DNA from: Frankia alni
Lineage (GTDB): Bacteria; Actinomycetota; Actinomycetes; Frankiales; Frankiaceae
Assembly: GCA_026225295.1 (NCBI GenBank)
Contig: JAMFSN010000139.1
Location: 1-38,936 of the forward strand
DNA: 38,936 nucleotides
Reading direction: 5' to 3'
In this document: positions 16,629 to 26,121 of the stretch, piece after piece
How the letters are laid out: every line of letters begins with the position of its first letter
Position numbering within the stretch: position 1 is the first letter of the stretch
The notes under the pieces: model-generated
What the model saw: the letters and a program-made list of their open reading frames with translations, nothing else
What the model was told of the DNA's origin: nothing
The model's database searches: none
Made by a program: the position numbers and the translations under genes

Positions 16629-17623
16629 CCGCGACCGAGGGAACGACCACCGACGGAACGACCACCGACGGAACGGCGGCTACCGATATGACCATCGAAG
16701 GCACGACCACCGATTCCGGGGCACCGACAACCGGGGCGTCGGCGGCACGGCCTTCCCTCGAGCCCCGGTCGGACCGGGTGACGGTCGCGCCGGTCCGGCT
16801 CGCCGGCGGCGGCCCGGCCCACTACGTGCGGGCCGTCCGGGTGATCTGGCTGCGCGAGGTGTTGAGGTTCGCGGGCGACCGGACCCGGATCGTGTCCGGC
16901 CTGATCCAGCCGTTTCTGTTCCTGTTCGTGCTGGGGACCGGGTTGTCGCGGGTGGTGGCCCACACCAACGGGGTGGACTACCGGACCTTCCTGTTCCCGG
17001 GCGTGGTGGCCCTGTCGGTGCTGTTCACGGCGGTCTTCTCGGGCATCTCGATCGTCTGGGACCGCGAGTTCGGCTTCCTGCGGGAAATGCTGGTCGCGCC
17101 GGTCCGGCGCAGCGCGATCGTCGTCGGCAAGTGCCTGGGCGGCGCGACCACGGCGAGCCTGCAGGGCATCGTGCTCCTGGCCATCGGCGGTCTGGTCGGG
17201 GTGCCCTACCAGCCGGTGCTGCTGCTCGGCCTGTTCGGGCTGATGCTGCTGACCTCGTTCGCGATCACCGCGCTCGGGCTGGTGCTCGCGGCGCGGGTCA
17301 AGACGATCCAGGCCGCCATGCCGCTCGTGCAGATGGCCCTGGCCCCGATGATGTTCCTGTCCGGAGCGCTGTACCCGATCGGCAACCTCCCGACCTGGCT
17401 GCAGATCCTGACCCGGATCAACCCGGTCACCTACGCCGTCGAGGCGATGCGGGCGCTGGTCTTCTCGTATCTGACGATCGATTCCGCGACCCGGGCGACC
17501 CTCGACCCGGGCGTGACCTGGGACGGCTGGCGGGTACCGGGCGGCCTGGACGTGGTGCTGGTCGTCGTCCTGAGCCTGGTCATGCTCACCGGGGCCTGCC
17601 TGCTGTTCCGCAAGGCGGAGTAG
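16625..17623 (+). CDS. DrrB-type ABC-2 permease
   Basis: 332 residues, starting in the stop of the ATPase gene. Residues 1-~55 are an unusual Thr/Gly/Asp-rich tail. Then six hydrophobic segments of the ABC-2 membrane fold follow, with FAGDRTRIVSGLIQPFLFLF, FGFLREMLVAPVRRSAIVVG (the family's conserved cytoplasmic loop) and INPVTYAVEAMRALVF. Together with the ATPase it should form a drug or lipid exporter of the daunorubicin-resistance type. Nothing tells its substrate. It converges on the phosphatase gene with a 31-base gap. Confidence 0.92.
   Translation: MTATEGTTTDGTTTDGTAATDMTIEGTTTDSGAPTTGASAARPSLEPRSDRVTVAPVRLAGGGPAHYVRAVRVIWLREVLRFAGDRTRIVSGLIQPFLFLFVLGTGLSRVVAHTNGVDYRTFLFPGVVALSVLFTAVFSGISIVWDREFGFLREMLVAPVRRSAIVVGKCLGGATTASLQGIVLLAIGGLVGVPYQPVLLLGLFGLMLLTSFAITALGLVLAARVKTIQAAMPLVQMALAPMMFLSGALYPIGNLPTWLQILTRINPVTYAVEAMRALVFSYLTIDSATRATLDPGVTWDGWRVPGGLDVVLVVVLSLVMLTGACLLFRKAE
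16641..16670. repeat. 15-bp tandem repeat at the permease 5' end
   Basis: GAACGACCACCGACG occurs twice in a row and a third degenerate copy follows. It encodes the GTTTDGTTTDGT start of the permease. Confidence 0.85.
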
Positions 17624-17654
17624 GACGCCGACCCGGTCGCGCCCCGCGAAAGGC

Positions 17655-18863
17655 TCAGCTGCTGGCCGGCAACGAGGCCGATCGCGGGTCGCGTCCGGAG
17701 CTGGACGCCTCGCGACCGTCGCCCGCCGCGCCGTCCGAGTCGGCGCCGGGGTCGCCCTCGTCCCGGCCCGGAGCGACGGCCGCGGGCCCGCCGCCGGCCC
17801 GGCGCGCCCGCGGCACCCGGTCGCTGAGCCGCTCGGCGGCCAGCAGCGCCAGATCGTCCTTGAGCTCCCCGCCGACGTGGGCCCGCAGCTGGGTGGTGAG
17901 GTGGTCGAGGGCCTCGTCCAGGCTGCCCCGGGCCAGCTCTTCGACGTGGTCGTCGAACGGGAAGAACTGACCGTCGCGGTCGCGGGCTTCGATCAGCCCG
18001 TCGGTGAACATCATCAGGCGGTCCCCCGGCTCCCAACGGTCCGACCCGGCCGCGTACGACTCGGCGATGCCCAGTGGCGGGCTCGACAGGGGCATCGAGA
18101 GTCTTCGTACCCCGCCGTTCGGGGTGACCAGCACGGGCGACGGGTGGCCGGCGTTGAGCAGGCGCAGCGTGCCGTCGGAGTGCATGTCGACGAGCAGCGC
18201 GGTGACGAAGTCCTCGGTGTCGGCCTCCCGCGCGACCGCGCGGCCGCAGGCCGCGGCCACCTGTTCCAGATCGAGCCAGGTCACCGCGGCTTCGCGGAAG
18301 GCGCCCAGCACCACGGCGGTCAGCCGGACCGCCGGCAGGCCCTTGCCCCGGACGTCGCCGATGATCACCCGCAGGGTCTGCGGCGTGGCTACGACCTCGT
18401 AGAGGTCGCCCCCGATCAGTGCCTCGTGGGCGGCGGAGAGGTACCGGGTCGCGAAGCCGACCCCGGCCAGCCGCCCGGGGACGGCCGGCAGCAGCGCGTG
18501 CTGCGCGACGTAGGCGACGTTGCGCACGTGCCCCAGTTCCTGCTCCCGCCGCCGCCGGGCCACCGCGACACCGACCGCGAACCCGGCCACCGCGAGCACC
18601 AGCAGGCAGGCCACCAGGTGTTGAGCGCTTCCGAACCGCTGGTCCCAGGTGCCGCTCAGCACCGCGGCGACCACCGCCGCCGAGCCGATCCCGGCCACGG
18701 TGCGCGGGCCACAGGTCGCCGCGGCGGCGAGCGGCGCGAGTCCGAAAAATCCGGTGAGCGTGACATCCGGAAGGGCGATGTCCGCGATGATGGCGAGCAC
18801 CAGCAGCAGGGCGGCCCGTGCCGCCCCACCCGGGACCATGCGACTGTGCATTGTGGCCATCAT
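17655..18863 (-). CDS. Membrane SpoIIE-type PP2C serine/threonine phosphatase
   Basis: About 402 residues from ATG 18863; starts at 18902 (TTG) and ATG codons at 18860 and further in are also possible. Residues ~10-110 form three or four TM helices. From ~120 the PP2C/SpoIIE catalytic domain shows FATRYLSAAHEALIGGDLYE, IIGDVRGKGLPAVRL, LLNAGHPSPVLV, RLMMFTDGLIEARD and KDDLALLAAE, with the Asp residues that bind Mn/Mg. A Ser/Gly/Asp-rich tail of ~60 residues ends it. It dephosphorylates Ser/Thr proteins, often anti-sigma factor antagonists; the target is unknown. It follows the SCP2 gene on the same strand. Confidence 0.88.
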   Translation of the reverse strand: MMATMHSRMVPGGAARAALLLVLAIIADIALPDVTLTGFFGLAPLAAAATCGPRTVAGIGSAAVVAAVLSGTWDQRFGSAQHLVACLLVLAVAGFAVGVAVARRRREQELGHVRNVAYVAQHALLPAVPGRLAGVGFATRYLSAAHEALIGGDLYEVVATPQTLRVIIGDVRGKGLPAVRLTAVVLGAFREAAVTWLDLEQVAAACGRAVAREADTEDFVTALLVDMHSDGTLRLLNAGHPSPVLVTPNGGVRRLSMPLSSPPLGIAESYAAGSDRWEPGDRLMMFTDGLIEARDRDGQFFPFDDHVEELARGSLDEALDHLTTQLRAHVGGELKDDLALLAAERLSDRVPRARRAGGGPAAVAPGRDEGDPGADSDGAAGDGREASSSGRDPRSASLPASS

Positions 18864-18893
18864 GCCTGCCCGGGGCGGGCATCGCCGGGGCAA

Positions 18894-18902
18894 TGTGGAC
18901 AA
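18894..18902 (-). promoter_or_regulatory. Single DnaA-box-like sequence
   Basis: TTGTCCACA on the minus strand, identical to the actinobacterial DnaA box, lies upstream of the phosphatase ATG; its TTG could even be used as a start codon. One copy may be chance. Confidence 0.3.
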
Positions 18903-18969
18903 AGTGCGGCCCGGGCATCGGTCGACCCTTACTTGGTGACCATGAGTGTCTGGTCGGGATCCGTACGTG

Positions 18970-23927: not shown

Positions 23928-24289
23928 GGGCAATCCCCGTTGAGAGACCGCGCGGCCCGGCCGGCGCTGGTCCGCGCGAAGGGCTGGGGGTACGCCGGTA
24001 GTGGCACGCTAAGCAATATATCCACTACCTAAGGCAACCGATCCGGCGTGGCGCGCGTCTTTCTGGTTGCACTCCGTAACGAAATGCCACTTTGAAGCGG
24101 TGAATCGTGACGCTCGGTCACCGTCGCGGTCAGCGGTGATCGCGGGACGAGAGGCAGTCGCGCCGAGGCCGATCGGGGCCGTAAGCGGGCAGCGGGGTGG
24201 GTCGACGGTGTCGACGATCAAGACCGCGGGGGTGTCGGCCCGGGCGTTTCGCCGACCCCCCGGGGTCGTGTACGCTGTCGAAGTCGCCG
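23928..24289. other. Intergenic region between muramidase and tRNA-Thr
   Basis: About 360 bases. An A+T-rich part (24005-24035, AAGCAATATATCC) probably holds the muramidase promoter reading left. I looked for a ydaO/c-di-AMP riboswitch, common ahead of actinobacterial cell-wall hydrolases, and could not support one. The right end (CGGGGTCGTGTACGCTGTCG) is the tRNA-Thr promoter. Confidence 0.45.
24271..24276 (+). promoter_or_regulatory. -10 element of tRNA-Thr
   Basis: TACGCT, 13 bases before the tRNA 5' end. No clear -35 precedes it. Confidence 0.4.
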
Positions 24290-24365
24290 GCCCCTTTAGC
24301 TCAGTCGGCAGAGCGTCTCCATGGTAAGGAGAAGGTCTACGGTTCGATTCCGTAAAGGGGCTCCA
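24290..24365 (+). tRNA. tRNA-Thr (GGT)
   Basis: Acceptor GCCCCTT (24290-24296) pairs with AAGGGGC (24355-24361). The anticodon loop ATGGTAA has anticodon GGT; the T-arm TACGG/CCGTA encloses TTCGATT. The discriminator T is at 24362 and an encoded CCA follows at 24363-24365. It starts the conserved tRNA-Thr, tRNA-Met, rpmG order. Confidence 0.97.
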
Positions 24366-24643
24366 TCGTTTTACCGCCTAACGGCACATCGTCACCGATC
24401 GCTGCTTCCTCGCCTTTGTCGGGTGGGGAATTGCATTCACGCCCTTTTATCTTGGCGTTGCGGTTCGGAGTGCGGCATTTCCCCGGGGCCGGCGGTTTTC
24501 GGTGAGTCGTCACTTCCCGATCACGCTGTTCGTCGAGCGGTGAGCCCGCCGCACTCATTTTTTCGCGCCGGCCGTTGTCCACAGCCGCGCCGTTGTCCAC
24601 AGGTCTGGATTCTTTCCGGTCGCGCTGTCGCCCGGCGTCCAGC
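24366..24643. other. Spacer between tRNA-Thr and the next gene
   Basis: About 280 bases, relatively A+T-rich near 24440-24570 (CTTTTATCTTGG, CATTTTTTCG). No gene is seen apart from the DnaA boxes and the probable promoter of the gene at 24644. The T-rich run near 24555-24564 lacks a convincing hairpin. Confidence 0.35.
24575..24601 (+). promoter_or_regulatory. Two direct DnaA boxes
   Basis: TTGTCCACA is at 24575-24583 and again at 24593-24601, same strand, 18 bases apart start to start. This is the preferred actinobacterial DnaA box (as in Streptomyces oriC). The pair lies 43-69 bases before the next start codon, where DnaA could affect transcription. oriC itself is not suggested: there is no large box cluster, dnaA or dnaN. 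Confidence 0.55.
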
Positions 24644-25606
24644 ATGGATTCCATGACGACCCTGACCTTGTCCGTTCCCAGAACGCTGGCCGCGATCTAC
24701 CTCGTTCCGGTGGCCGCCCCGCTGCGCGATCCCGCGACCCTGGTCCGCCGCGAAATCGAACGACGCGTGGGGGAGCCGTTGCGGCACCTCATCCTGGACG
24801 CCCTCGGGCGCGGCCAGGCGCGGGTCGAAGTGTGGTGGGCCCACGATGTGGCTTTGCCCTCGCCTGACATCTTCGCCGCGATGGGCGCCCCGGCGTCCCT
24901 CCTCCCCGCTGTGCGGCACGCTCTGCGATTCGTCGTGGTGAGCGTGGTCGGAGTCCCCGGTGCTCCGCCGCTGCACGAATGGGCCGGCCGGGCCATCGCC
25001 GCCACCGTCGCCGGCGCCATCGGGGGCCCGGTGGTCGACGTGTTCACGCCCCGGTTGATGGGGGCGGACGAGGCGGCCGGCTCACTGCCGACCGGCGACC
25101 GGTCACCACCCCTCGCCGGGTGGCTGTTCGTGCCCTACTCACCCACCGGGGGCGGCTACCGGGCGACCACCCGCGGGCTCGGTCGGTTCGGCCTCCCCGA
25201 GTTGCAGACCCGGGTCGTGCCCGGGGAACTGATGGTGCCGTGGTGTCGGGTCCTCACCGGTATCGCGTCCCGGCTGCTGGACGCCTGGCACGAGCGGTTG
25301 CGGACCTGGGACGACGCTCCGGCCGCTTTCCTCGAGCTGCCGGCCGAGCTGGACGTGACCGCTGCCGCGGTCGCCGAGGCCTACGGCGGGACGCCCACCG
25401 CCGAGGTCGAGCCCGGCCGGGCGGATCCGGGCCGGGCCGCCGGGGGCATCGGGCTCGTGCTCGACCCGATCGGTCCGGACCGCGAAACATTCCTCACCGT
25501 CGTGCCCCCCGAGGGCTTCGCCGGGACACCGGACGAGCATCTCGCGGCAGTGTGCGCGGCGACCGGCACGACCGCGGTTGCCGCTGGTCCGAGGGGCGTC
25601 CCGTGA
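24644..25606 (+). CDS. Hypothetical protein between tRNA-Thr and tRNA-Met
   Basis: 320 residues from ATG 24644; ATG 24653 (MTTLTLSVPRT) is equally possible and neither has a good ribosome site. Segments: LAAIYLVPVAAPLRDPATLV, VWWAHDVALPSPD, a helical ALRFVVVSVVGVPGAPPLHE, a Gly-rich AATVAGAIGGPVVDVFTPRL, GWLFVPYSPTGGGYRATTRG, RLLDAWHERLRTW. It looks soluble and single-domain, with no signal or TM helix. I do not recognise the family. Codon use is normal for the neighbourhood and the long frame with strong third-position GC argues for a real gene. Likely lone. Confidence 0.6.
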   Translation: MDSMTTLTLSVPRTLAAIYLVPVAAPLRDPATLVRREIERRVGEPLRHLILDALGRGQARVEVWWAHDVALPSPDIFAAMGAPASLLPAVRHALRFVVVSVVGVPGAPPLHEWAGRAIAATVAGAIGGPVVDVFTPRLMGADEAAGSLPTGDRSPPLAGWLFVPYSPTGGGYRATTRGLGRFGLPELQTRVVPGELMVPWCRVLTGIASRLLDAWHERLRTWDDAPAAFLELPAELDVTAAAVAEAYGGTPTAEVEPGRADPGRAAGGIGLVLDPIGPDRETFLTVVPPEGFAGTPDEHLAAVCAATGTTAVAAGPRGVP

Positions 25607-25794
25607 CGGACCCGTGAGTGGTCACGGTGCCGTCAGCGTTCGCGTCGGGACGCGACGGGCGGGTGGCGAAGGGCGCCCGGCGAGCAGTGCGGGGGCCCTC
25701 CCGACCCCCGGACGGCAACCCGGCCGGGACGCGCGCGCCGCGCCCGGCCCAAGTCCCGGTACTCTTATTGCGGTCCCGGCTGCGTCGGGCGCTA

Positions 25795-25868
25795 GGCGGT
25801 GTAGCTCAGTTAGGCAGAGCAAGCGGCTCATAATCGCTGTGTCGCCGGTTCAAATCCGGCCACCGCTA
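25795..25868 (+). tRNA. tRNA-Met (CAT), elongator type
   Basis: Acceptor GGCGGTG (25795-25801) pairs with CACCGCT (25861-25867) with one G-U. The anticodon loop CTCATAA has CAT. The T-arm GCCGG/CCGGC encloses TTCAAAT. The discriminator A is at 25868; CCA is not fully encoded. A full first acceptor pair and no three-GC anticodon stem favour the elongator type. TACTCT at 25760-25765 could be the -10. Confidence 0.93.
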
Positions 25869-25956
25869 CCGACCAGGATCGTCCCGGTCGACATGGCTCA
25901 GGTTGGTCCCATACCCTGAACTGTCGACACCCGTCCATAGCAGGAGGCTTGGCACA

Positions 25957-26121
25957 GTGGCCGCCACCGATGTCCGTCCGAAGATCACCATGGCGTGCCA
26001 GGTGTGTAAGCACCGGAACTACATCACGCGCAAGAACCGCCGCAACGACCCGGATCGCCTGGAACTGAAGAAGTTCTGCCCGAATTGCCGTTGCCACCAG
26101 GAGCACCGCGAGACCCGCTAG
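25957..26121 (+). CDS. rpmG: 50S ribosomal protein L33
   Basis: 54 residues from GTG 25957 with AGGAGG nine bases upstream. [20 protein letters not shown] and [17 protein letters not shown] give the two Cys pairs (CxxC...CxxC) of the zinc-ribbon type of L33. It joins the large subunit near the E site. Position after tRNA-Met and before the HadAB genes is the usual actinobacterial order. Confidence 0.96.

Follow-up and report, generated by a model that had tools for sequence, protein, structure and literature searches.

A tandem pair of putative DnaA boxes ahead of an orphan gene in a lineage-specific tRNA spacer of Frankia alni, and recurrent box pairs in its family

The enlarged tRNA-Thr/tRNA-Met spacer and the orphan gene

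The window analysed here, i.e. the whole stretch of 38,936 nucleotides from Frankia alni, carries an enlarged spacer between a tRNA-Thr and a tRNA-Met gene, in which an orphan gene, P0001, is preceded by two boxes of the sequence TTGTCCACA (Table 1). A preliminary description of this DNA had reported the two boxes, on the same strand and with an 18-bp period, and our exact-match check agrees with it. It had also placed them between tRNA genes; both flanking tRNAs are real, and the three tRNAs of the window were the only RNA families found in it at gathering score. The two boxes are enclosed by two perfect copies of a 14-bp direct repeat and lie 42 to 78 bp ahead of the alternative ATG starts of P0001, and no additional box within one mismatch was found in the spacer beyond the pair.

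Table 1. Features at and around the box pair (positions in the window)
Feature	Position	Strand	Basis or remark
tRNA-Thr(ggt), upstream neighbour	24290..24365	+	RNA family scan
Enlarged tRNA-Thr/tRNA-Met spacer of 1,429 bp, specific to the lineage; P0001 and both boxes lie in it	24366..25794		comparison with relatives
Hairpin resembling a terminator (T-rich tail), downstream of tRNA-Thr and upstream of the boxes	24537..24560	+	weak: 2 sites in 24200-26000, 0.9 expected
14-bp direct repeat GCCGTTGTCCACAG, two perfect copies enclosing the boxes	24571-24584 and 24589-24602	+	repeat scan
DnaA box 1, TTGTCCACA	24575..24583	+	exact match; published actinobacterial high-affinity box
DnaA box 2, TTGTCCACA, 18 bp after box 1	24593..24601	+	exact match
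Orphan gene P0001, 320 aa	24644..25606	+	start 24644 or 24653; no Pfam/NCBIfam family
tRNA-Met(cat), downstream neighbour	25795..25870	+	RNA family scan

The size of the spacer sets this genome apart from its relatives. At all 31 family loci in which both tRNAs were seen (33 fetched, two of them too short), the spacer measures 34-140 bp, and in other families it measures 27-180 bp at 21 of the 23 loci with both tRNAs seen (27 fetched). Enlarged spacers were also observed in other families at L077 (1,422 bp) and L078 (739 bp), and P0001 had no match in these two genomes (G044 and G045). The neighbouring MaoC-like protein, P0002, matched two loci, one on a MAG contig without tRNAs and the other in Frankia sp. 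AiPs1 (L098, probably the same record as G034:C548 and counted once), where the spacer is 101 bp long; this named relative is the ground on which the family is called Frankia-type below. A search for mobile-element repeats around the insertion gave nothing convincing, the one direct repeat family being that of the boxes and the seven inverted pairs showing 71-92% complementarity.

None of the family models searched fits the product of the orphan gene. No Pfam hit was obtained for P0001, and no NCBIfam hit for P0001 and two of its homologues. When three homologues were scanned, two matched DUF4026_C, one of them DUF2314 as well, with every score short of the curated cut-offs, and the third matched nothing; these assignments were not adopted. 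For the predicted structure (mean pLDDT 75.5, from 7 sequences), no match in the PDB reached E <= 0.001 (best 0.088), and the sequence profile reached a best E of 0.031. Homologues with 36-40% identity are present in five of 392 other genomes of the class, which belong to two other families, and P0001 had no match in the 57 relatives examined; this patchy spread suggests that the gene was gained horizontally. The six homologue loci in these five genomes (L100-L105) hold no exact box, and no tRNA was found in the stretches examined; at L104, a one-mismatch copy, TCGTCCACA, starts 86 bp before the ATG of the homologue. Alignments with the homologues begin near residue 7 of P0001, from which the two alternative ATG starts follow. 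The P0001 frame is open through the boxes, and a TTG start would be possible at 24575, but given where the homologues begin, the boxes are probably untranslated despite the open frame.

The preliminary description had further put the boxes inside a probable promoter, which is not borne out by our scan: it covered sigma-70-like sites only and gave no promoter-like site in 24200-26000, and the last TA step ahead of the start codon stands at 24448. The interval from tRNA-Thr to the start codon has two more TA dinucleotides, at 24372 and 24379, and the one at 24448 begins its only TANNNT, ~120 bp before box 1. Two kinds of control of P0001 were considered and rejected. The only LexA-like candidates were two 3-mismatch matches (24378 and 24396), well upstream of the boxes, and the only PafBC-like candidates were two bare TGTCG words, with no complete TGTCRG-N10-TANNNT element.

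DnaA boxes in the window, the genome and the family

According to PMC4285127, TTGTCCACA is the high-affinity DnaA box of S. coelicolor and M. tuberculosis; both window boxes are identical to it, but they lie outside oriC. On both strands of the window together, the word has three exact matches, whereas 100 dinucleotide shuffles averaged 0.15 and never reached three. The degenerate motif TTRTCCMCA finds the same three sites (shuffle mean 0.39; one of 100 shuffles reached three), and TTWTNCACA has no match in the window. The third exact match of the window is on the minus strand at 18894-18902, close to where a reading frame of that strand begins (17431-18918). Across the whole genome there are 33 exact copies of TTGTCCACA and 9 of the reversed word. 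Since ~22 single boxes are expected in the genome from composition (the window shuffle mean scaled up), single boxes are at most mildly enriched, and the information lies in their pairing: if the 33 boxes were placed independently, ~0.003 same-strand pairs would be expected in this genome (hand arithmetic).

Conservation of the boxes in relatives, to which the preliminary description had tied its reading, was not found. None of the 60 orthologous stretches from relatives (both tRNAs seen in 54) contains an exact TTGTCCACA or TTATCCACA, in a comparison where the genus is represented by this genome alone. However, the gene itself is absent from the orthologous places, so the missing boxes there point to a young site rather than an idle one.

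Frankia-type genomes repeatedly carry same-strand DnaA-box pairs at a small number of fixed positions, most prominently ahead of recA. The pattern TTGTCCACA-N0..30-TTGTCCACA on the same strand was found 47 times among the 35 family genomes, 28 of which contain it, and two of these pairs are in the genome of the window; no pair was found with the reversed pattern, a control that keeps base composition and not dinucleotide composition. A looser pattern, TTRTCCNCA-N1..30-TTRTCCACA, gave 105 pairs in all 35 family genomes and again none when reversed, the commonest periods being 13 bp (26 pairs), 18 bp (20) and 21 bp (19). When 29 of the places with exact pairs outside the window's own genome (L106-L134) were grouped by DNA similarity, they formed groups of 13, 4, 4, 3 and 2 loci plus three singletons, with the window locus and the own-genome site C173 left ungrouped. 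In the largest group (L106, L109, L113-L115, L118, L120-L122, L124, L125, L133, L134) the pair lies near position 1501 and has a period of 21 bp, and L120 has a third box 12 bp away. At L106, the pair is flanked by the genes for a PadR-type regulator and a myo-inositol-1-phosphate synthase, and the boxes fall within the PadR frame or at its end; pairs of this type lie ~33 kb from a DnaA-domain match in G004 (measured across the start of the record) and ~31 kb in G029. The three-locus group (L107, L108, L111) includes G009, in which 397 bp separate the end of the pair from the DnaA-domain match that follows, and a four-locus group (L123, L129, L130, L131) lies upstream of recA, L123 being placed there by similarity only.

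The recA locus accounts for most of the pairs that share their period with the window pair, as 17 of the 20 looser-pattern pairs with an 18-bp period sit upstream of this gene (16 by coordinates and that of G011 by similarity). Conversely, when the best-fitting pair ahead of recA was taken at each of 30 family loci (L141-L170; 33 genomes had a match), its period came to exactly 18 bp at 26 of them. The own genome is among these, and its pair (L165; G000:C47:10721-10747) reads TTGTCCACA-N9-TCATCCACA. In G008, G009, G012 and G020, one box is left upstream of recA, with its start at -144 from the anchor used. In most of the family recA sequences inspected, the pair stands between two motifs that we take to be a LexA-like operator and a PafBC-like element, the latter of the form TGTCGG-N10-TANNNT, with CGTCGG in the own genome. 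A hand-picked set of 40 recA loci from other families contains no pair: within 400 bp ahead of the gene, a single TTRTCCMCA, always on the + strand, was found at eight loci and none at the other 32. Since a period of 18 bp mainly marks recA, its match with the period of the window pair may be coincidence. No paper on DnaA boxes at actinobacterial recA was among the literature matches listed, and, subscription journals being mostly outside that search, novelty is not implied; a search for DnaA boxes together with Frankia, with subscription journals likewise mostly uncovered, found no paper combining both.

Further tandems are scattered over the own genome. C173 (L036:1678-1720; G000:C173:9177-9219) carries three boxes at a 17-bp period, of which the second has a mismatch; they lie between the gene for a UvrD-type helicase and a divergent gene for a glutaredoxin-like protein. 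Other tandems are found in C19 (period 17, upstream of a DUF2786 gene), C365 (period 17, near a PGA_cap gene) and C260 (period 18, upstream of a SAF-domain gene). An 18-bp tandem in C344 (L179, near 1326-1395) looks like TCATCCACA pairs but was discarded as a DnaA pair, being plainly a coding repeat that falls in a likely coding frame. A divergent arrangement was also seen, in which two exact boxes, 38 bp apart from start to start, lie between two reading frames of C93 (L035:1169-1215). In the putative dnaA-dnaN interval of this genome (L034:3010-3514, its dnaN presumed from visual inspection), TTGTCCACA has no exact match and TTATCCACA a single one, so that the putative oriC is box-poor.

Possible roles of the window pair

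The naming of the boxes as DnaA boxes, as made in the preliminary description, is well supported, given that TTGTCCACA is the published box and that pairs of it recur in the family upstream of dnaA (G009) and of recA. The consensus match, the non-random pairs of the family and the recA-upstream pairs of 18-bp period together make it likely, as judged from sequence, that DnaA binds the two perfect boxes of the window. The interpretation that we lean towards, with a confidence somewhat short of even, is that the pair is a DnaA site outside oriC, lying in an insertion specific to this lineage, and that its most likely effect is to modulate transcription into the orphan gene. It can be envisioned that this insertion placed the orphan gene between tRNA-Thr and tRNA-Met, a spacer that is perhaps a recurrent insertion place. 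DnaA would bind both tandem high-affinity boxes ahead of the gene, and the bound DnaA would modulate, most likely reduce, the transcription entering it, whether this comes from a local start or from readthrough out of tRNA-Thr. Against this reading stand the scan that recognised no promoter near the boxes, the lack of exact boxes in the relatives' stretches and the homologue loci, and the frequency of short tandem duplications in this genome. The two roles suggested in the preliminary description fare differently: a coupling of the P0001 gene to replication initiation is possible, though no promoter was recognised at the boxes, and titration of DnaA is the less likely of the two. A parallel is found in E. 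coli, where DnaA acts with LexA on uvrB and recN (PMC8203912). There, as here, one or more boxes precede the gene, but P0001 has only poor LexA-like matches and no known link to DNA repair.

The pair could also have arisen without any selected role, if a chance box in a young insertion was copied by a short tandem duplication, in which case DnaA might still bind it in vitro. This neutral origin is the main rival reading, if on balance a doubtful one. It is favored by the fact that the 14-bp repeat exceeds the length of the box, and by the lack of boxes in the relatives together with a number of single boxes near background. Moreover, perfect tandem repeats of at least 14 bp with a period of 10-30 are common in this DNA: the 38.9-kb window has 10 rows at nine sites, the box pair included, i.e. 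~1 per 4 kb, and a non-random sample of 57.3 kb from other stretches of the own genome has 13 rows. Nevertheless, tandem duplication alone would be expected to yield ~0.1 exact box pair per genome (a hand estimate from stretches that are not random), which makes such a pair unlikely but not rare, and the pairs found across the family far exceed the reversed control.

Titration would take the form of an element that binds DnaA and limits initiation, with readthrough from tRNA-Thr as a possible modulator. S. coelicolor has DnaA-box clusters outside oriC (D78, H69 and H24), which are of high affinity, lie near oriC and titrate DnaA. The window site shares with them high-affinity boxes clustered outside oriC, but it has two boxes only and lies, by synteny, ~12-15% of the chromosome from dnaA. 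This distance is that of the orthologous place in all six relatives with long contigs (hand arithmetic; the own genome consists of 412 contigs), and it suggests, as does the layout, an element resembling datA of E. coli. According to PMC10950094, datA is located downstream of the glyVXY tRNA operon, which has a terminator/attenuator, and the window likewise has DnaA boxes downstream of a tRNA gene, preceded by a terminator-like hairpin. The window site differs from datA in having just two boxes that are not conserved in relatives, with no other box within one mismatch in the spacer, rather than a cluster of several boxes with a large share of the sites. As the pair makes up two of the 33 exact boxes of the genome, its contribution to DnaA titration is probably small, and we consider a datA-like element improbable. 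We give as little credence to the notion that TTGTCCACA is here the target of another regulator or a coding part of a longer gene product. The frame of P0001, open through the boxes from a possible TTG, would allow the latter, but the homologues start near residue 7, and the word is a known DnaA box that recurs upstream of dnaA.

Returning to the extra-oriC site that modulates transcription into P0001, a bolder version of it can be put forth, in which a recA-type tandem (same strand, 18 bp) before a probably acquired gene would make P0001 an initiator-timed accessory gene, and 17-18-bp tandems would mark a Frankia-type DnaA regulon that includes recA, the UvrD-type helicase gene and others. 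We regard this as unlikely, though worth stating. Taken by itself, the window pair adds another candidate to the DnaA sites outside oriC, at a place that only this genome has among those examined. The pair upstream of recA, a by-product of this analysis, is the more interesting of the two and merits a study of its own: binding of DnaA at that site, if it occurs, would make the recA promoter a point where the actinobacterial DNA-damage response is joined to replication initiation.
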